DNA of 33,864 nt, from IMG/VR virus record IMGVR_UViG_3300003702_000593, positions 1 to 33,864 of that record; one strand, 5' to 3'. Shown here piece after piece: positions 18 to 33,864 of this stretch; position 1 is the first letter of the stretch; each line of letters starts with the position of its first letter. The notes below the pieces were generated by a model. That model saw nothing but the letters and a program-made list of their open reading frames with translations, was not told the DNA's origin and made no database searches. Source of the DNA: a virus. Position numbers and translations under genes: made by a program.

Positions 18-452
18 ATGGAGAAAAGAATGGTTGGATTAAGAACCTTCGGCGGATTAGCCGACTTTGAAAACTTCTGGCTAGGATATGACCGATTTAA
101 TCGTCAATTTACTAGAGAAGTTTTACCGTATGCGGAGGTAAATTACCCCCGCTATAACATAGTCAAGGATAAAGATAGCTACGATATAGAGATCGGACTC
201 CCTGGCTGGAATAAGAATGACCTCGAGGTCTCTCTTAAAGAAAGCATCCTCACGATCGAGGGTAAAAAACAAGACACTAGTGCTGAATACATACACAGAG
301 GTGTTAGTGGAAAAGCTTTCAAAAGAACGTTCACTTTGCACGAAGATTTAATAGTGCATAATGTAACTTTCAAGAATGGAATGTTGACAGTAGAAATTGA
401 TATTGTCGTTCCAGACGAAAAGAAACCAAAGACCTTTAGTATTAAGGGTTAA
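18..452 (+). CDS. Hsp20 family small heat-shock chaperone
   Basis: 144 residues, the usual size of IbpA-type small heat-shock proteins, which are ATP-independent holdases that bind unfolding proteins in the cytoplasm. An alpha-crystallin domain runs from about residue 44 to 130, with the pattern YDIEIGLPGWNKNDLEVSL near residues 55-73, LTIEGKK at 78-84 and the closing G-x-L strand NGMLTVEI at 120-127. A short C-terminal tail ends in KPKTFSIKG and lacks a clear I-x-I motif. AAAGGG at 6-11 is a Shine-Dalgarno six bases before this ATG, supporting the start. The gene is followed directly by a hairpin terminator, so it probably ends a transcription unit entering from the left. Small heat-shock proteins are known in marine T4-like phages, where they are thought to aid virion assembly. 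Confidence 0.93.
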   Translation: MEKRMVGLRTFGGLADFENFWLGYDRFNRQFTREVLPYAEVNYPRYNIVKDKDSYDIEIGLPGWNKNDLEVSLKESILTIEGKKQDTSAEYIHRGVSGKAFKRTFTLHEDLIVHNVTFKNGMLTVEIDIVVPDEKKPKTFSIKG

Positions 453-457
453 ATATA

Positions 458-484
458 ATTGGGGAGAGTAATCCTCTCCCCAAT
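458..484 (+). terminator. Hairpin terminator after Hsp20
   Basis: Perfect 11-base-pair inverted repeat: ATTGGGGAGAG at 458-468 and CTCTCCCCAAT at 474-484 around a 5-base loop. It begins six bases after the Hsp20 stop codon. The T tract after it is weak (TTATAATG), so termination may be partial or may need help. Confidence 0.65.
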
Positions 485-504: not shown

Positions 505-552
505 ATGAACCAAGAAGCATATGAAAGGCGAAGAAAATTCTATAAATTGTAA
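505..552 (+). CDS. Possible 15-residue leader peptide
   Basis: A 15-codon frame (MNQEAYERRRKFYKL) whose stop overlaps the ATG of the next gene (TAATG at 550-554). GAGAGGAG at 496-503 sits only one base before the ATG, which is tight for a Shine-Dalgarno. It is very basic and has no recognisable domain. It is listed because the same TAATG junction links the next three genes, so it may serve to couple translation. It could equally be a chance frame. Confidence 0.25.
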   Translation: MNQEAYERRRKFYKL

Positions 553-719
553 TGAGTCTTTTTATGGGAGGGGGAAAACAACCTAAGTGGAAAGTTTATA
601 ATGATAAACCCACGGAGGAAGAACTGAAAAAATGGAAACAAGAAGATGATATTTATAAGTTATTATTTTGGGTGTTCTTCTTATATGTATTAATTGATAC
701 AGTTTTTTCTTTGTTCTAA
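552..719 (+). CDS. Small single-helix membrane protein, 55 aa
   Basis: Product not recognised. It is 55 residues long: a charged, lysine- and glutamate-rich first half (start MSLFMGGGKQPKWKVYND) and one hydrophobic helix at about residues 36-55 (KLLFWVFFLYVLIDTVFSLF), so it is probably an inner-membrane protein with its N terminus inside. GGGAGG lies inside the frame near codon 6, so an internal start at the second Met is not well supported. Its stop overlaps the start of the ribosomal protein gene (TAATG), and the two are likely co-translated. It lies close to the spanin genes, so a lysis role is possible but unproven. Confidence 0.6.
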   Translation: MSLFMGGGKQPKWKVYNDKPTEEELKKWKQEDDIYKLLFWVFFLYVLIDTVFSLF

Positions 720-889
720 TGGCTAAAAAGAAAACAAGAACGGCAATTAAAATGCAGAGTACAGAATCTCCGCATTATTACACAACAGTAACAAACCCTA
801 GAAATAATAGTGGTAAATTACAGTTGAAAAAGTATGATCCTACTTTAAGAAAAGTAGTGATATATAAACAGGCAAGAAAACTAAAATAA
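719..889 (+). CDS. rpmG: Ribosomal protein bL33, zinc-free type
   Basis: 56 residues, the standard length for bacterial large-subunit protein bL33, which binds 23S rRNA near the E site. Recognisable family landmarks are MAKKKTRTAIKMQST at the start, HYYTTVTNPRN at 19-29, KLQLKKYDP at 33-41 and VVIYKQARK at 46-54. No cysteine is present, so this is the zinc-independent form without the CxxC pairs. It is joined by TAATG junctions to the gene before it and to the i-spanin gene after it. Phage-encoded ribosomal proteins are known from viral surveys and are thought to replace host copies in ribosomes during infection. That role is inference here. The match is clear by eye over the full length. Confidence 0.9.
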   Translation: MAKKKTRTAIKMQSTESPHYYTTVTNPRNNSGKLQLKKYDPTLRKVVIYKQARKLK

Positions 890-1290
890 TGCAATATATT
901 TACATAATGATAGTAATTGGAGGATTAGCAAGTGGTGGTTATGTATGGTACCAAGACACAATGGATAGATACGAAGTACTCGCTGCAGAGAAGGCTGCAC
1001 TTACTCTCAAACATCAACAACAAGAAGCTGCGTTTGAAGCTCTTAGGAAATCTCATGAACAGCAAAGAGTGGCAAATGATGCTCTTACAAGAAGAAATTC
1101 AGAAATCGAAGCAGAAGCAAAATCGTATCTGGAAGTTTTTAAGAAGCATGATCTCACCAAACTGGCACGAGCTAAGCCTGGACTCATTGAAACTAGAGCG
1201 AATAACGCGACGGATAAAATTTTTAAGGTAATAGAAGATGAAACAGAACCTCAAGATTACGAACCTAATACTAATACTAGTACTAATTAG
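889..1290 (+). CDS. i-spanin (Rz-like inner-membrane lysis protein)
   Basis: 133 residues. An N-terminal hydrophobic helix at about 2-20 (start MQYIYIMIVIGGLASGG) anchors it in the inner membrane. It is followed by a long, charged, glutamate/lysine/glutamine-rich helix at about 27-95, as in Rz-type i-spanins, and a polar tail ending in NTNTSTN. The decisive evidence is context: the next gene starts inside its 3' end in another frame and encodes a lipoprotein, the classic overlapping Rz/Rz1 arrangement. Spanins fuse inner and outer membranes in the last step of lysis of Gram-negative hosts, so the host should have an outer membrane. The sequence family itself is too variable to match by eye. 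Confidence 0.75.
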   Translation: MQYIYIMIVIGGLASGGYVWYQDTMDRYEVLAAEKAALTLKHQQQEAAFEALRKSHEQQRVANDALTRRNSEIEAEAKSYLEVFKKHDLTKLARAKPGLIETRANNATDKIFKVIEDETEPQDYEPNTNTSTN

Positions 1291-1681
1291 TAGTTGTTCA
1301 ATGGGTGGACGAAGAGCCACACCAAATCCCGTAGAGATTATTTCTGCACCAATACAAATTGAAATATATCATCCACCTCTGCCAAAAGCTATTCAGTTAG
1401 AAAGACCTGATTGGTATGTTGTAAGTGAAAAGAATATAGATGAGTTTATGGAAAAACTTTCAAAGATACAAGGGTTTGAAGGAGTTCCAACATTTTTTGC
1501 GCTAAGCCCGCAAGGGTATGAAAAAATGAGTGGAAACCTACAAGAAATGAGAAGATATATACTAGAACAAAAAGAAATAATAGTATATTATAAAACAGTT
1601 ACAATGACAGATGAACCTACAAAGGTGGAAAATGCGTCTAATAGACCTTCTATTGGCTTATTTCCAAGAGATAAAGAATGA
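1238..1681 (+). CDS. o-spanin (Rz1-like outer-membrane lipoprotein)
   Basis: 147 residues. It starts 53 bases inside the i-spanin frame, in a different frame. The N terminus is a lipoprotein signal peptide: KQNLK, a hydrophobic stretch at about 8-17, then LISSC with the lipidated cysteine at residue 20. The mature start CSMGG lacks an Asp at +2, as expected for outer-membrane sorting. The mature part is moderately proline-rich just after the anchor (near 28-48) and then unusually long for an Rz1, with a segment at 54-125 (PDWYVVSEKNIDEFMEKL onward) that may be a folded domain. That length is the main oddity. The partner is the overlapping i-spanin. Confidence 0.75.
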   Translation: MKQNLKITNLILILVLISSCSMGGRRATPNPVEIISAPIQIEIYHPPLPKAIQLERPDWYVVSEKNIDEFMEKLSKIQGFEGVPTFFALSPQGYEKMSGNLQEMRRYILEQKEIIVYYKTVTMTDEPTKVENASNRPSIGLFPRDKE

Positions 1682-1908
1682 AATTAAAATTAATAGAAAA
1701 GTTTCATGAATCTTTACACTCAATGAGTATAAGGGGTCATTATATTAAACATATAGACCTACAAAAAAGAGTACAAAAAATCGAAAAGAAACAAGCAGAA
1801 CGATTTCCACATCTTATAGAAAGATTAGAACAGTTAGAAACAGATGTTAAAACACTAAAAATGGAACACGATATTTTATATGCTAATTCTTTAAAGACAG
1901 ATGAATGA
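1678..1908 (+). CDS. Small coiled-coil protein of unknown function
   Basis: 76 residues; not recognised. It is rich in Lys, Glu, Leu and Ile with heptad-like spacing from about residue 26 to 68 (LQKRVQKIEKKQAERF, then LIERLEQLETDVKTLKMEH), so a parallel coiled coil is likely. There is no signal peptide or membrane helix. Its ATG overlaps the o-spanin stop (ATGA), and its own end overlaps the next gene by eight bases. It could be a lysis-timing or scaffold-like accessory, but nothing in the sequence decides this. Confidence 0.6.
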   Translation: MKLKLIEKFHESLHSMSIRGHYIKHIDLQKRVQKIEKKQAERFPHLIERLEQLETDVKTLKMEHDILYANSLKTDE

Positions 1909-2158
1909 ACCAGAGTATAAATTTGATGAAGATAGAAAAATCAAAGAAACTCTAAAGTATATACAGACTACTTACGATAAACATTATTCTCAAGGTAGTA
2001 TACAATCTACAGAATTTATAGTAGATTCTGGTCATATAGAAGGATTTTGTATAGGAAATATTATTAAATATGCTCAAAGATATGGGAAAAAAATGGGCGA
2101 GAGCAAGAGTGATAATCTTAAAAAGATTATACATTATGCGTTAATAGCGATGAAATGA
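1901..2158 (+). CDS. DUF3310-like protein
   Basis: 85 residues. The pattern from about residue 26 to 84 fits the phage family DUF3310 (sometimes labelled nucleotide kinase without proof): a histidine near HYSQ, then GHIEGFCIGNIIKYAQRYGKK at about 44-64 and DNLKKIIHYALIAM at 71-84. In the family these read as F-x-LGNAIKY-x-RxGxK and DLxKAxxYL. The domain is related in sequence style to MazG-like all-alpha proteins, but no function is established. ATGA-type overlaps with both neighbours place it in the same translated chain as the spanins and the Fe-S carrier. Confidence 0.7.
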   Translation: MNEPEYKFDEDRKIKETLKYIQTTYDKHYSQGSIQSTEFIVDSGHIEGFCIGNIIKYAQRYGKKMGESKSDNLKKIIHYALIAMK

Positions 2159-2472
2159 TAAGTATAACAGATAAAGCAGTACAAAAACTAAGAGAGTTTA
2201 TAGAACCTTGGGAGATAGTTAGATTAGCTGTCGAAGGTGGAGGCTGTAATGGCTTTCAATATAGGTTTGGAGTACAATCCGATGAGGAAATTGAACAGGA
2301 CGACCACATTACTGAAGCAGCTGATGGAGTTAGATTATGTGTGGACTTTATTAGTTATCAGTATTTAGAAAACGTAGAAATAGATTTTGAACAGACAACG
2401 TTTAGTTCAAAGTTTAAAATAAACAATCCTGATATATCAAGGACTTGTGGTTGTGGAAGTAGTTTTAGTTAA
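2155..2472 (+). CDS. A-type iron-sulfur carrier (IscA/SufA/ErpA/HesB family)
   Basis: 105 residues, the normal family length. A-type carriers bind and hand over Fe-S clusters in the cytoplasm. All three conserved cysteines are visible: C31 in GGGCNGFQY, and C98 and C100 in RTCGCGSSF. The start MISITDKAVQKLREFI and the central acidic segment also fit. By eye it cannot be assigned to SufA, IscA or ErpA. It overlaps DUF3310 by four bases and lies 20 bases before glutamine synthetase. SufB is encoded 13.5 kb downstream, so the phage carries two parts of an Fe-S assembly route. HesB/IscA-like genes are known in marine phages. Confidence 0.9.
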   Translation: MISITDKAVQKLREFIEPWEIVRLAVEGGGCNGFQYRFGVQSDEEIEQDDHITEAADGVRLCVDFISYQYLENVEIDFEQTTFSSKFKINNPDISRTCGCGSSFS

Positions 2473-2492: not shown

Positions 2493-3473
2493 ATGATTTA
2501 TAAATATATTTGGTTAGACGGGTATACTCCCGAACAAAACCTAAGGAGTAAGATTCAAGTTGCAGAGGGATATGGAATACTATCAGAAAATGACGGACCG
2601 CCTATTTGGGCATTTGATGGATCTTCAACACAACAAGCAGATGGCGGGTTATCAGACTGTGTATTAAAACCAGTTTCTAATTATAAAACGAAGACAGATA
2701 CTTTAGTTATGTGTGAAGTACTAAATAGTGATCACACACCACATAAGTCTAATTATCGTACTGATTGTGTAGGTGTAATTGGAGATGAATGGTGGTTTGG
2801 ATTTGAACAAGAGTACTTTTTCTATAAAGATGGAGAACCATTAGGATGGAAAAAAGGTGAAGAACCAGCTCCACAAGGACAGTACTATTGTGGTGTAGGT
2901 AGTGAGAATGTCGCAGGACGAGAAATCTCAGAAAGACATCTTAAAGCCTGTTTAGATGCAGGAATTCAACTTACAGGAACAAATGCAGAAGTTGCACTAG
3001 GTCAATGGGAATATCAATGCTTAGGTAAAGGAGTTAAAGCTGGAGACGACCTATGGGTTAGTCGTTATCTTTTATATGAAATTGCAGAAGAATTTGGTGT
3101 TAACGTAGTTTTACATCCAAAACCAAAATTAGGAGATTGGAATGGTTCAGGTATGCATACTAACTTCTCAAATGAAGAAATGAGAACTACTGGTAGTCAG
3201 TCATTAATGAATGAATTGTGTGAAAAATTAGGTTTATACCATGATGAAGCTATTGAAGAGTATGGATCTGATAATGATATGAGGCTAACAGGACTTCATG
3301 AAACTCAAAGCATTGATCAATTTTCATACGCAAAGTACGATCGTGGTGCAAGTATTCGTATTCCAATTTATACTATCGAACACGATTGGAATGGGTATTT
3401 AGAAGATAGACGACCCGCAGCAAATGCCAACCCTTATAGAATAATGGCACATATTGTAGGAGCCGTACGATGA
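2493..3473 (+). CDS. glnII: Glutamine synthetase, type II (GSII)
   Basis: 326 residues, close to full length for the eukaryote/rhizobial type II enzyme, which joins ammonia to glutamate using ATP. Family motifs occur in order: FDGSSTQQADGGLSD at 41-55, WWFGFEQEYFF at 100-110, YYCGVGSE at 131-138, TNAEVALGQWEYQ at 163-175, GDWNGSGMHTNFS at 214-226, NDMRLTGLHET at 261-271, DRGASIRIP at 283-291 and LEDRRPAANANPYR at 303-316. The metal- and ATP-binding acidic residues in these motifs appear intact, so activity is plausible. Type II enzymes lack the adenylylation control of type I. AAGGA before the ATG supports the start. Its tail overlaps the next gene by four bases. It may raise glutamine for nucleotide synthesis during infection (inference). 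Confidence 0.95.
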   Translation: MIYKYIWLDGYTPEQNLRSKIQVAEGYGILSENDGPPIWAFDGSSTQQADGGLSDCVLKPVSNYKTKTDTLVMCEVLNSDHTPHKSNYRTDCVGVIGDEWWFGFEQEYFFYKDGEPLGWKKGEEPAPQGQYYCGVGSENVAGREISERHLKACLDAGIQLTGTNAEVALGQWEYQCLGKGVKAGDDLWVSRYLLYEIAEEFGVNVVLHPKPKLGDWNGSGMHTNFSNEEMRTTGSQSLMNELCEKLGLYHDEAIEEYGSDNDMRLTGLHETQSIDQFSYAKYDRGASIRIPIYTIEHDWNGYLEDRRPAANANPYRIMAHIVGAVR

Positions 3474-7573: not shown

Positions 7574-8584
7574 GTGAGTCTAAAACATCTACTAGAACAA
7601 GCAAGTAAAGCGTATTATGAGGGTACTCCTATAATGCCTGATTATCAATTTGATGAACTATCCAAACTTTATGACTGGAAGAATGTAGGTTATGAAGGAA
7701 AAAACGGTAGAATTAGACATGAGTATAGACTTTATAGCTTACAAAAATTTTTTACAGATAGTGATAAATGGGTTTGGTATTTTGAAACCTTTATGGATCA
7801 TGAAATAGTAGAAACCCCAAAACTAGATGGCGCTTGTATTAGCCTACTTTATAAACAAGGTATTCTAATTCAGGCTCTAACAAGAGGCGATGGAATTGAG
7901 GGTATTGATATCACAGATAAAATTATTTTATCTAAAATGGTACCTCATCAATTAAAACATATGGACTACTCTCAAGGAGAAGTCAATAACGAATCAGACA
8001 TATCACAAGTCACGGGAGAAGTCGTTGCTCCCAAATCTATAACAAATTCACGAAATTACTCAGCAGGCGCTTTAAACCTGAAGGATACTAGTGAATTTAT
8101 CTCCCGTGATCTTACCTTTATAGCATATGATCTGCAACCCGCAGAACATTGTTATACATGGAGTATGGATTATTTAAGATATTCTGGATTTAAGACAGTA
8201 ACAGATCAAGTTTTAGCCCTTGAAATACCCCAAGAGTGGGAACAGTTTCCACACGATGGTCGAGTATTTAGGATTAATGACACAAAAGAATTTGAAAAAT
8301 GGGGTTATACTTCCCATCATCCTCGTGGAGCATATGCCTTAAAAGAACAAAAAGAAATTCAACAAACAATTTTGAAGGACGTAGTATGGCAAGTTGGTAA
8401 AAGTGGTCAAGTATCACCAGTAGCCATCTTAGAGCCAGTCGAAATCGGAGGAGCGATTGTAAAAAGAGCAACCCTACACAATATAGCATATATTGAAGAT
8501 TTAGGTTTAGAAATTGGTTGTGGAGTAGAAGTTATCAGATCAGGAGAAATAATCCCTAGAATTGTAGGAGTTATTGAAAAATAG
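7574..8584 (+). CDS. ligA: NAD+-dependent DNA ligase, N-terminal (adenylation and OB) subunit
   Basis: 336 residues, about half of a cellular LigA. Residues 1-60 carry the NMN-binding Ia-type segment (AYYEGTPIMPDYQFDEL). The nucleotidyltransferase motif I is ETPKLDGACISL with Lys83 as the AMP-accepting lysine; TRGDGIEGIDIT at about 108-119 and GEVVAP near 148 are further adenylation motifs. The OB domain (PVAILEPVEIGGAIVKRATL; GVEVIRSGEIIPRI) ends the protein. Zinc finger, HhH and BRCT parts are missing here and are encoded by the gene at 8643. The GTG start has AAGGGAG at 7561-7567 in front. It should form AMP-ligase and seal nicks together with the second subunit. T5-type phages also split this enzyme. 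Confidence 0.93.
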   Translation: MSLKHLLEQASKAYYEGTPIMPDYQFDELSKLYDWKNVGYEGKNGRIRHEYRLYSLQKFFTDSDKWVWYFETFMDHEIVETPKLDGACISLLYKQGILIQALTRGDGIEGIDITDKIILSKMVPHQLKHMDYSQGEVNNESDISQVTGEVVAPKSITNSRNYSAGALNLKDTSEFISRDLTFIAYDLQPAEHCYTWSMDYLRYSGFKTVTDQVLALEIPQEWEQFPHDGRVFRINDTKEFEKWGYTSHHPRGAYALKEQKEIQQTILKDVVWQVGKSGQVSPVAILEPVEIGGAIVKRATLHNIAYIEDLGLEIGCGVEVIRSGEIIPRIVGVIEK

Positions 8585-8642: not shown

Positions 8643-9407
8643 TTGATAATGACCAAAACAATAACACCACCAAAAAATTGCCCTAGTTGCAATTCGGTAT
8701 TAGAATGGGTCAAGGATCAGCTTTTTTGTATGAGCGATAGTTGTCCAACTAAAAATTCAAAATTAGTAGAACACTTCGCAAAGTCTCTCAGAATAAAAGG
8801 TCTTGGACCAAAAACAGTAGACAAATTATTACTAGACAATATTAATAAGATTTACGAAATAGATTATAATTACATAGAAGCCTCTCTAAAATCTAAGAAA
8901 TTAGCCGAGAAATTGATTAATGAAATAGAGAAAAGTAAGAAGTCTGATTTACAGACTTTATTACCAGCGTTTTCTATCCCACTTTTTGGAAGGACAGCCT
9001 CTGAAAGATTATGTGGGGAAGTTTCGGAAATAAGCGAAATAAATGCTGACTCATGTAAGAAAGCAGGGTTAGGTCCAAAGGTAACAAATAATATGTTAAA
9101 CTGGCTCAAGAACTTTAATCAGTATCAAACACTCCCTTTTAGTTGGAAAACTAATAAGCAAGTTCAAAGAACAGCTTATATGGAAGTAAAAGGAGTTGTT
9201 TGTATATCTGGAAAACTTAAGTCTTATCCTACAAAAGCTATTGCAAAGAAGTATTTAGAAGCAAAAGGTTATGTAGTGAAAAGTAACTTTACAAAAGATG
9301 TGAACATTTTAGTGAATGAAAGTGGGATAGAATCCGCAAAAACTAAAAAGGCTCATGATAATAATATAAATGTAATTAATGATATTACAACTTTAATCGG
9401 AGGATAG
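8643..9407 (+). CDS. NAD+-dependent DNA ligase, C-terminal (Zn, HhH, BRCT) subunit
   Basis: 254 residues holding the parts missing from the gene at 7574. A four-cysteine zinc finger lies at residues 13-34 (C13, C16, C29, C34). Helix-hairpin-helix repeats follow from about 50 to 165 (LRIKGLGPKTVDKLL; SIPLFGRTASERL; KAGLGPKVTNNML), then a BRCT domain from about 180 to 252 (GVVCISGKLKSYPTKAIAKK; GYVVKSNFTKDVNILV). The start is either TTG at 8643, seven bases after GAGAG, or ATG at 8649; the difference is two residues. These domains bind and encircle nicked DNA in cellular LigA. Here they must act as a separate subunit. It has its own consensus promoter at 8588. Confidence 0.92.
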   Translation: MIMTKTITPPKNCPSCNSVLEWVKDQLFCMSDSCPTKNSKLVEHFAKSLRIKGLGPKTVDKLLLDNINKIYEIDYNYIEASLKSKKLAEKLINEIEKSKKSDLQTLLPAFSIPLFGRTASERLCGEVSEISEINADSCKKAGLGPKVTNNMLNWLKNFNQYQTLPFSWKTNKQVQRTAYMEVKGVVCISGKLKSYPTKAIAKKYLEAKGYVVKSNFTKDVNILVNESGIESAKTKKAHDNNINVINDITTLIGG

Positions 9408-15857: not shown

Positions 15858-15937
15858 TTAAAATAGATCCAGTCTGGGTAGTATTATTATTATTTCTTGC
15901 AATAGTAATAATTAAACAATGGATTAATTTACTATGA
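15854..15937 (+). CDS. Micro membrane protein, 27 aa
   Basis: 27 residues with a single hydrophobic helix ([18 protein letters not shown]). ATGA overlaps link it to the membrane protein before it and to sufB after it, which favours real translation. Function unknown. Confidence 0.45.
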
Positions 15938-17373
15938 AAAAAAGTAACCCTAAAATTGAAAAATACATTGATAAAAGTTATGAGTATGGCTTTGTTACTG
16001 ATATAGAATCAGAAACAATATTACCAGGACTTAGTGAAGATGTAATTCGATTGATTTCGTTCAAAAAGAATGAACCAGAGTTTTTACTTAAATGGAGACT
16101 TAAAGCTTTTAAACATTGGCAAAAAATGAAACAACCAACGTGGGGTCATTTAAGAATTAAAGATATTGATTTTCAGTCTATTTCATATTTTTCACAACCC
16201 AAACAAAAACTTAAATCTCTAGATGAAGTTGATCCAGAACTATTACTCACTTACGAAAAATTAGGGATTCCACTTCATGAAAGAGCTAAACTTGCAGGAG
16301 TTGCTGTTGATGCAGTTTTTGACAGTATCTCAGTAGTAACAACTTTTAAAGAAAAATTGGCAGAAGTGGGAATCATTTTTTGTTCTTTTTCAGATGCAGT
16401 ACAAAATCACCCAGATTTAATTAAAAAATATTTAGGAAAGGTTGTTCCTTTCAGAGATAATTTCTACGCTGCTCTAAATGCAGCAGTCTTTAGTGACGGC
16501 TCATTTGTATATATTCCTAAGGGTGTTCGTTGTCCGATGGAACTATCAACATATTTTAGAATCAATGAAGAAAATACAGGACAGTTTGAGAGAACATTAA
16601 TTATAGCAGATGAAGGTAGTCATGTTAGTTATCTTGAAGGATGTACTGCACCAATGAGAGATGAAACTCAATTACATGCTGCAGTTGTTGAACTAATCGC
16701 ACTTGATGATGCTGAAATTAAGTATTCTACAGTTCAAAACTGGTATCCCGGAGATGAAGAAGGTAAAGGTGGTATATATAACTTTGTTACTAAACGAGGG
16801 GACTGTAGAGGTAAAAACTCAAAAATATCTTGGACACAAATTGAAACAGGTTCTGCAATAACATGGAAATATCCAAGTTGTATTTTAAGGGGAGATAATT
16901 CAATTGGTGAATTTCACTCAATAGCATTAACAAATAATTATCAACAAGCAGACACAGGAACAAAAATGATACACTTAGGTAAAAATACTAAAAGTAGAGT
17001 TATTAGTAAAGGTATTTCTGCTGGTCATGGTCAAAATAGTTATAGAGGTCTTGTCTCTGTTTCAAAAAATGCAAAAGATTCTCGTAATTATACTCAATGT
17101 GATTCTTTATTAATTGGTAGTGATTGTGGAGCCCATACTTTTCCAACTATAGAAAGTCGTAATTCATCGGCCATAATAGAACATGAAGCTACAACTTCTA
17201 AAGTGGGAGATGAACAACTTTTTTATTGTAGACAAAGAGGTATTTCAGAAGAAGATGCAATCGGTCTCATAGTTGGTGGTTTCTGTAAAGAAGTTTTAAG
17301 AGAACTTCCAATGGAATTTGCTGTAGAAGCTCGAGCCTTATTACAAGTTAGTTTAGAGGGAGCTGTTGGATGA
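15934..17373 (+). CDS. sufB: SufB, iron-sulfur cluster scaffold
   Basis: 479 residues, full length for SufB, the scaffold of the SUF (SufBC2D) system that builds Fe-S clusters under stress or iron limitation. Conserved regions include [20 protein letters not shown] near 174-193, [18 protein letters not shown] near 194-211, SYLEGCTAP with C237, [17 protein letters not shown], and [15 protein letters not shown] with C398, the position of the essential E. coli Cys405. [14 protein letters not shown] follows, with His417 matching E. coli His433. No cysteine or motif loss is seen, so it is probably functional. SufC and SufD are not in the window and would have to come from the host or elsewhere in the genome. 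A zinc-ribbon gene overlaps its stop. Confidence 0.96.
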
Positions 17374-31296: not shown

Positions 31297-33864
31297 TTAT
31301 TTTTCCTGTTTTAGTTTCTCAACTTCTGCCGAGAGTTCTTGGATTGATTTTACAAGCATAGGTATTAGTGCACTTTCACCAACTCTTTGCCTATCATTTA
31401 CTTCATCTACTCGCCATAGACCAAAGCCTTCTTTAATTTCTGGATACTTATCTATTACTTCTTTAACTTCTTGAGCCACAAATCCATGATTATATTTACC
31501 ATTCATGGTTCTTTCTTCAGAGTCTTCTACATAGGCTGTATGATCTTTAGGTAAGTCTTTTTCTTTTTTCCAAAGGAAAGTAACAGGTCTTAATTCGTTT
31601 ATAAAATTTAATCCAACTACTTCGTCTTGTATATCTTCTTTGTACCTAATGTCCGAAGGAGCTGACCAAGTAGTTCCACCAAATGAACAAGTAGTATCTA
31701 CTGTGCCATCTCCAAATGTAAAAGTTGAGTCACCAGAACCTGCTATATTATATCCAAAAACATGTTGTTTTTGAGAATCAGTAGCAGAGGTATGTGTATA
31801 ATTACCCATCATAATATTTCTAATACCTGTTTGAAGTAATACACCATAAGCACCTGTTGCTTCACCTATACCAACATTATAAGAACCTGAAGTAAGTGCT
31901 CCTAAAGCACTTGAACCTACAGCAACTGTTCCAGAAGCCCCTAGTATAGCATCTGAAGCAGTAGCACCAATCGCTACATTAGCATTACCACTAGTCATTA
32001 TTTTACCAGCATCTTTACCTATAATTACATTACCTGCAGCTGCAACAGCTTTACCTGCATCTTTACCTATAATTACATTATTATCGCCGTTACATATTAA
32101 TCCTGCACGAGCACCTATTACAGTATTTCCAGCAGAATTACTATTTGTTTGCATAGCTTGATAGCCAATAGCTATATTATCTGCACCAGAAGTGTTATAA
32201 TATAAAGCACGCCAACCTATTCCTATATTATAATATCCACCTTCATTATATCGCATTGCTTGAAAACCTATACCCATATTAGAATTACCAGTATTTTGAT
32301 TTAAAGCCAAAGATCCAAAGGCAATATTTTGAACACCATTAATATTAGTTGTTAAAGCACCTGCTCCAACCGCAGTATTTTCATAACCCGCAACATTTAA
32401 TTTTAACGCTTCATAGCCTACAGATGTATTATATCCACCAGTAGTATTCATCTGACTATATAAACCAATAGCTACTTGTTGTGCTGAAATTGCTTTACCT
32501 GCTGCTGATCCTATAGCAATATTACCTGTTCCTGTATTTGTATAACCAGCTTCATGTCCGATCATTACTTGATTTGATCTATTTCCACTAGTTCCTGCAA
32601 CATTACCAATATGTACATTTTGTATACCTGTAGAAGTACCAGCACCTGCAGCATACCCTACAGCAGTATTATTATTACCTGAAGTATTTACTGTTAATGC
32701 ATTATAACCGACCGCTACATTATTATTACCTGTAACAGCAGCATCTAAAGCATAAGCACCAATACCTACATTTTCTGAACCTGAGGTATTTCCTTGCATA
32801 GCTGCACGACCCATTGCAGTATTATTATTAGCTAAGTTTCCATTTAGTGCATCTTGTCCAAAAGCACAGTTACTTGTACCAGTTAGATTTTCATACAAAG
32901 CAGCATATCCAAAAGCGGAATTATAATTTGCTGTAGTATTTTTTCTTAAAGCACTATATCCAAAAGCGTTATTATTACCACCAGTAGTATTATCTCTAAG
33001 TGCTTCTCTACCAACAGCAGTATTAAAAGTTCCTTCAGTATTAGTAACAAGGGCACTTGTACCAACTGCAGTATTATGAGCACCACCATCATTTGCTGCT
33101 AAAGCATAATAACCAACAGCTACATTTGCAGCTCCATCCGTATTTGAAGATAATGAATTTCTACCTACAGCTACGTTCTGTGTACCTGTAATATTTGCAT
33201 ATAAAGCAGAGCGACCAAAAGCATCATTACTACCTCCTGTAGTATTTGCTTGTAAAGCACCTTTACCAACAGCTGTATTAGCATCACCAGTTGTATTTGC
33301 TTTTAAAGCATCAATACCAACAGCAACATTATTAGATGCTGTGGTGTTTGCTGCTAAAGCACTTGAACCAAGGGCTGTGTTTGATGCTCCTGTGGTGTTT
33401 ACTTCTAAAGATTTAAAACCAACTGCTGTGTTACTTGCGCCTGTGGTGTTTGCTCCTAAAGCACCTTTACCCACTGCTGTACCATAAGAGCCTGTGGTGT
33501 TTGCATCTAAAGCTGTAGCACCCACTGCTACATTATCAAGACCTGTAGTATTTACTAGTAATGAGTTAGCACCAACTGCTGTATTATTAGCACCTGTGGT
33601 GGTTGCTCCTAAAGCACTAGAGCCAACGGCTGTGTTACTACCTGCTGTTGTATTAGCATCTAGTGCTTGATAACCAACTGCAACATTAGTTGTACCTGTG
33701 GTGTTTGCTCCTAAAGAAGCGTAACCAACTGCTACATTATTTGCCGCTGTTGTATTGGCATCGAGAGCATAAGAACCAACGGCTACATTACCTGCACCTG
33801 TGGTGCTTACATATAGTGCATTACGACCTATGGCAACATTATTTGCCCCAGTTGTGTTTTCTTG
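31297..33864 (-). CDS. YadA-head-like repeat fibre/adhesin with S74 chaperone domain, 5' end cut
   Basis: At least 855 residues; the frame is open to the window edge, so the N terminus is missing and the GTG at 33525 is only an internal codon. About 40 tandem 17-residue units of the form N-(T/V)-A-(V/I/F)-G-x-x-A-L-x-x-N-T-T-G-x-x fill most of the visible part. This is the pattern of trimeric YadA-type head beta-rolls. The end is a second S74 chaperone: PSDIRYKEDI with the Ser/Lys pair, LRPVTFLW, HGFVAQEV and a coiled coil SIQELSAEVEKLKQ. It is probably a receptor-binding fibre or tip adhesin that trimerises and then sheds its chaperone. It is adjacent to and probably co-transcribed with the other fibre gene. 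Confidence 0.88.
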   Translation of the reverse strand, partial: QENTTGANNVAIGRNALYVSTTGAGNVAVGSYALDANTTAANNVAVGYASLGANTTGTTNVAVGYQALDANTTAGSNTAVGSSALGATTTGANNTAVGANSLLVNTTGLDNVAVGATALDANTTGSYGTAVGKGALGANTTGASNTAVGFKSLEVNTTGASNTALGSSALAANTTASNNVAVGIDALKANTTGDANTAVGKGALQANTTGGSNDAFGRSALYANITGTQNVAVGRNSLSSNTDGAANVAVGYYALAANDGGAHNTAVGTSALVTNTEGTFNTAVGREALRDNTTGGNNNAFGYSALRKNTTANYNSAFGYAALYENLTGTSNCAFGQDALNGNLANNNTAMGRAAMQGNTSGSENVGIGAYALDAAVTGNNNVAVGYNALTVNTSGNNNTAVGYAAGAGTSTGIQNVHIGNVAGTSGNRSNQVMIGHEAGYTNTGTGNIAIGSAAGKAISAQQVAIGLYSQMNTTGGYNTSVGYEALKLNVAGYENTAVGAGALTTNINGVQNIAFGSLALNQNTGNSNMGIGFQAMRYNEGGYYNIGIGWRALYYNTSGADNIAIGYQAMQTNSNSAGNTVIGARAGLICNGDNNVIIGKDAGKAVAAAGNVIIGKDAGKIMTSGNANVAIGATASDAILGASGTVAVGSSALGALTSGSYNVGIGEATGAYGVLLQTGIRNIMMGNYTHTSATDSQKQHVFGYNIAGSGDSTFTFGDGTVDTTCSFGGTTWSAPSDIRYKEDIQDEVVGLNFINELRPVTFLWKKEKDLPKDHTAYVEDSEERTMNGKYNHGFVAQEVKEVIDKYPEIKEGFGLWRVDEVNDRQRVGESALIPMLVKSIQELSAEVEKLKQEK
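31830..33864 (-). repeat. About 40 degenerate 51-bp coding repeats
   Basis: Tandem units of about 51 bases encode the 17-residue YadA-head-like repeats of the fibre gene. Units nearest 33864 are most alike at DNA level (repeated CCTGTGGTGTTTGC and CCAACTGC), while those toward 31830 are more divergent. This suggests recent expansion at the N-terminal side. The array runs off the window. Confidence 0.8.

Follow-up and report, generated by a model that had tools for sequence, protein, structure and literature searches.

A bL33 gene among the lysis genes of a clade of uncultured T5-like phages

We find that an open reading frame at positions 719-889 of a 33,864-base viral contig (IMGVR_UViG_3300003702_000593; the whole stretch is called the window below) encodes a genuine, working-looking bL33. 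Judging from the contigs compared here, one small phage clade keeps this gene fixed at a lysis-operon locus. Phage bL33 as such has already been published; set against the main text of the 2019 article of Mizuno et al. (PMC6375957), the new details are the fixed place in the lysis operon, the bS21 partner and three shared substitutions. Scattered reports of viral bL33 thereby become a traceable case, with one clade, one lysis-operon locus, bS21 alongside bL33 in the genomes and three residues open to testing. This provides a simple experimental opening on the exchange of ribosomal parts by phages and on the changes that count.

We propose that a captured bL33, fixed in one T5-like clade and made late with the lysis proteins, replaces host bL33 in the 50S subunit, a reading that we consider probable. 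It builds on the observed identity and fold of the protein, its conserved place, purifying selection and the presence of bS21 in the relatives; we infer the late expression, the incorporation and the effect on translation. After capture from a bacterium, the gene would have become fixed in a single clade of uncultured marine phages of the T5-like kind. Its translation would proceed by stop-start coupling from one late message, together with a membrane protein and a spanin pair. Late in infection the phage bL33 may then take the place of the host protein in 50S subunits, close to the E-site tRNA. New or damaged ribosomes would thus be kept complete, or ribosomes slightly tuned for phage late proteins, with bL33 probably acting beside the phage's own bS21.

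Such a replacement could occur because host bL33 is loosely held and exchangeable. The article of Mizuno et al. places bL33 among the loosely bound, exchangeable ribosomal proteins, describes its contact with E-site tRNA, reports the entry of phage-encoded bS21 and bL12 into E. coli ribosomes, and calls the function of bL33 obscure (PMC6375957). In vitro, 50S subunits without L33 incorporate the protein when it is supplied (PMC9307594), and in other phages bS21 expression accompanies that of the late genes (PMC9723584).

Identity, fold and shared substitutions

The reading frame runs on the plus strand from ATG to TAA and encodes a complete protein of 56 residues. It matches Pfam PF00471 (Ribosomal_L33; E 1.8e-12, 47.8 bits against a cut-off of 25), NCBIfam TIGR01023 (rpmG_bact; 4e-16, 59.1 bits against a cut-off of 23.95) and PRK00595 (54.8 against a cut-off of 50), and a PF00471 search of the whole virus record (33,864 bases) returned exactly one bL33 (E 1.7e-13). 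There is no cysteine in the window protein or anywhere in the six-row phage alignment, and hence no CxxC zinc ligands. The original prediction of a complete, cysteine-free bL33 of 56 residues thus holds.

The structure was modelled with AlphaFold from a 28-sequence alignment (pLDDT 83, pTM 0.62); an earlier model from the six phage rows alone was too poor and was set aside. The top Foldseek matches of the model were all bL33 chains of solved ribosomes, from E. coli, Vibrio and Pseudomonas (TM 0.75-0.8, probability 1.00, best E 1.3e-3 for this short protein). Best matches by family and by fold therefore both fall within bL33. E. coli RpmG, a cysteine-free bacterial bL33, shares the family and the predicted fold and is 44% identical in the alignment. 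Relative to proteobacterial bL33, the first loop of the window protein is one residue shorter.

Comparison of the six phage copies, from the window and five relatives described below, indicates a preserved core of S14, Y21, T23, N26, K38, D40, P41 and V47, together with three changes common to all six. None of the three was seen in the bacterial copies sampled. These are K25T, H46V and E51Q, where a small sample of 30 cellular bL33 sequences, biased because most were found by shared peptides (8-mers), has K in 29/30, H in 26/30 with no V, and E in 30/30. With K25, H46 and E51 altered in every copy, normal bL33 function is not certain. At this sample size, we treat the three substitutions as a lead rather than proof of altered function.

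The changes might alter contacts with the E site or the 23S, giving a specialised or inhibitory bL33 that does more than replace the host protein: the modified ribosomes would favour late phage messages or translate host ones more slowly. Their fixation in the clade would fit this, as would the retention of K, H and E in a second phage group, and ribosomes carrying phage bS21 were reported to be largely inactive in E. coli (PMC6375957). However, the remaining conserved core is kept, the substitutions may be neutral or host-specific, the bL33 of the true host might share them, and the cellular sample is the small and biased one above. We consider such a specialised bL33 rather unlikely. A bolder version, in which a matched pair remodels both subunits late, with bS21 on the 30S platform and the charge-altered bL33 at the 50S E site yielding specialised ribosomes that favour phage late messages, is a somewhat longer shot.

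The lysis operon and its conservation

The genes and elements around bL33 in the window are as follows.

18-452, plus strand: small heat-shock protein Hsp20, with which the conserved stretch opens (PF00011 5e-14; phrog_432 9e-35)
459-484, plus strand: hairpin 3' of hsp20, with strong hairpins at the same place in all six phages
552-719, plus strand: 55-residue protein with one C-terminal hydrophobic segment, with a counterpart in all five relatives
719-889, plus strand: bL33, cysteine-free, 56 residues (profile and Foldseek matches given above)
889-1290, plus strand: Rz-like i-spanin (phrog_739 8.4e-14)
1238-1681, plus strand: Rz1-like o-spanin (phrog_812 1.5e-13; lipobox LISSC), out of frame with the i-spanin
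1901-2158, plus strand: DUF3310 protein, in the downstream part of the conserved stretch (PF11753 6e-13)
2155-2472, plus strand: A-type iron-sulphur carrier, ErpA-like (PF01521 2e-17; TIGR00049 6.5e-28)
2493-3473, plus strand: glutamine synthetase-like protein, 326 residues (PF00120 1.9e-17)

A 76-residue protein lies between the o-spanin and the DUF3310 protein, and all of these genes follow one another on the plus strand in the order listed. The stop codon of the 55-residue gene (TAA, 717-719) overlaps the bL33 start at 719, and the bL33 stop (TAA, 887-889) overlaps the i-spanin start at 889. The TAATG joins to a membrane protein and to the i-spanin gene, as first described for this DNA, are thus both present. 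The 55-residue protein had no family match in Pfam, PHROG or further searches. The inner spanin has an N-terminal transmembrane segment, the outer one is a lipoprotein, and the two genes overlap by 53 bases in different frames; on these features they qualify as an Rz/Rz1 spanin pair. This pair, directly 3' of bL33, bears out the view that the gene sits among lysis genes. Spanins point to a host that has an outer membrane, and Gcw_chp, an outer-membrane-type protein found in one relative, fits such a host.

The hairpin at 459-484 is likely the transcript boundary ahead of the bL33-spanin operon. Its stems differ widely among the six bL33 phages (GGGGAGAG, GGGGACTAC, GGGTGAAAG and GGGGAG) and occupy the same place, which suggests that structure rather than sequence is kept; only L005 of the six has a T-run after the hairpin. 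A promoter scan gave no more matches than chance, and an Rfam scan of the window found no RNA family. In the relatives, a short membrane peptide (MNQ...FYKRGFWLCFTYFLID; for example L005 3205-3310) precedes the 55-residue membrane protein and shares with it the motif FW..F.Y.L.D, and the window version (505-552) is shortened to about 15 residues. Two small paralogous membrane peptides beside the spanins could be holin-like.

The five relatives were obtained by scanning IMG/VR with bL33, the i-spanin and Hsp20, which gave contigs G001-G005 (loci L002, L003, L004, L005 and L060) alongside the window (G000). The gene is thus not confined to one phage: bL33 stands directly 5' of the i-spanin in 6/6 phages, with a TAATG junction in five, including the window, and TAA-ATG in L002. 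The DNA polymerase of the close relatives is 82-83% identical to that of the window, in the contigs that include it, and their bL33 copies are 73-80% identical to the window copy. Three pairs with unsaturated dS gave dN/dS of 0.038, 0.085 and 0.189; window pairs gave 0.06-0.16, with dS saturated. Synonymous changes therefore dominate (dN/dS 0.04-0.19), which points to purifying selection on the bL33 protein in this clade.

Beyond the clade, a polymerase search yielded 80 loci, and bL33 was found in 0/27 of the larger records of that set that were tested. The i-spanin is present in ten more distant records, and these spanin-spanning relatives are without bL33. Nine of the ten (G006, G009, G012, G014, G017, G019, G020, G026 and G036) have a lysozyme-type endolysin upstream of the i-spanin, on its strand and zero to two genes away; G022, the tenth, has it on the downstream side. 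Within the bL33 clade, G001, G002, G003 and G005 have their endolysin next to bS21 on the opposite strand, and a search of G004 yielded none. The simplest account of these gene orders would be a gain of bL33 by the clade's ancestor, accompanied by a move of the endolysin.

All five close relatives carry bS21, as do eight more distant ones. In the relatives its gene sits upstream of Hsp20 and is read from the other strand, a place that corresponds to DNA beyond the left edge of the window; the window phage therefore probably has bS21 as well. At L004 6165-6520 (minus strand) a small basic protein of the DUF7230 type accompanies bS21, and the pair is kept in four relatives. By eye we suspected an ArfA-like rescue factor in the DUF7230 protein, which hhalign did not support (probability 1.2%).

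The TAATG coupling, and the location of bL33 where other relatives have an endolysin upstream of the i-spanin, would also fit a gene whose chief use is to the lysis operon, where translational coupling would set i-spanin output and the protein itself would count for little. Any short reading frame would do for coupling, however, and the protein is under purifying selection and has a well-kept fold, so we find this improbable.

It had also been suggested that a zinc-free bL33 would keep ribosomes working under zinc shortage and would fit the metal-related genes nearby. The protein does lack cysteine, but so does the ordinary form: the CxxC zinc pair occurs in 0/30 of the cellular sequences. The metal genes are those of iron or iron-sulphur proteins (the ErpA-like carrier, SufB and rubredoxin), and no zinc uptake or Zur-like gene was seen among the window genes scanned. 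Both parts of the suggestion fall away, and we give a zinc-sparing role very little credence.

Other phage bL33 genes and the origin of the clade

The least credible reading of all, a bacterial rpmG brought onto the phage contig by misassembly or by contaminating host DNA, has a precedent in cultured-phage records with apparent bacterial DNA but is opposed by the same context in six independent contigs, by phage genes on both sides with no rpmB neighbour, and by the distinct, monophyletic phage sequences. Since five other contigs have bL33 at the same place, the window gene is explained by neither contamination nor chance. The IMG/VR record, the spanins, the T5-like replication genes and the shared context place it on a true viral genome.

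A second T5-like group (L077, L183, L184 and L185) has a different bL33. The polymerase in the L183 record shares 55% identity with that of the window, and the L077 terminase is 50% identical to that of T5-like phiR2-01. This group resembles the window clade in having an ErpA-like gene near bL33 and a TAATG junction after a membrane protein, and differs in that bL33 adjoins DUF1289 rather than spanins. Its other neighbours are a lipase, IscU and a glutamine synthetase 58% identical to that of the window. No bS21 was found on the four contigs. At L183 2743-5705, bL33 adjoins genes for a FecR-domain protein and for secreted proteins that contain curlin-like repeats.

A tree of bL33, on about 56 columns and with a cellular set biased by shared 8-mers, placed the window clade outside proteobacterial bL33 and the second group, which keeps K, H and E, among proteobacterial bL33. 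On so short a protein the AU tests reject nothing (all phage bL33 held together, p-AU 0.40), so neither the number of captures nor the host can be read from the tree, and a phylogeny that had been expected to point to the host did not do so. One or two captures of bL33 by these T5-like phages are both possible.

The notion that bL33 is uncommon in phages stood only in part. It is indeed a phage ribosomal protein, but the 2019 article already reported it from aquatic viral contigs, more than 10 of them (PMC6375957), and the Microcystis jumbo phage PhiMa05 encodes one (PMC13157829, 2026). The genes of the 2019 article resemble ours in that they include bL33 of uncultured aquatic phages, are under purifying selection and encode a loosely bound, exchangeable protein. 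PhiMa05 differs, as a jumbo cyanophage with six ribosomal proteins. A tblastn search of its record with the window bL33 gave no match at E up to 0.01, so the two proteins are not closely related. With the window protein as query, no genuine bL33 was found in cultured phage records, and the matches there were judged to be bacterial DNA inside phage records. Several public records named as Salmonella, Campylobacter, Enterococcus and Acinetobacter phages hold such bacterial-type rpmG.

The T5-like genome

The window phage and its relatives are uncultured, marine-type, T5-like phages. For the window this assignment rests on the replication module, the fragment being 33.9 kb and without capsid or terminase genes. 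The module comprises a split NAD ligase, a D5-like regulator, a DnaB-like helicase, primase and PolA, together with SbcCD, RusA and a 5'-3' exonuclease. The ligase is divided over two genes (7574-8584 and 8643-9407), a T5-like trait. The closest cultured DNA polymerase, 44% identical, is that of the T5-like Escherichia phage Lindwurm, and the first 12 kb of the window had no nucleotide match to cultured phages. T5-like phages (Demerecviridae) such as Lindwurm are alike in polymerase, split NAD ligase, D5-like regulator, SbcCD and RusA, whereas the window phage is unlike them in carrying Hsp20, iron-sulphur and glutamine synthetase genes.

Further window genes encode SufB, rubredoxin and a SET protein. 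SufB (15934-17373) shares 67% identity with its counterpart in Microcystis phage PhiMa05/MaAM05, a phage that encodes SufBCDS; among the window genes scanned, no neighbouring SufC or SufD was recognised. Nitrogen genes alternate at one place, with glutamine synthetase in the window (2493-3473) and the ammonium transporter AmtB in L002-L004 (L002 11179-12336). The window glutamine synthetase is 45-51% identical to those of uncultured phages of 0.6-0.7 Mb. At the right end, a long minus-strand reading frame (31297-33864) with many imperfect 51-base (17-residue) repeats adjoins a 1277-residue protein with a terminal Peptidase_S74 chaperone, and the two are probably tail fibre genes.
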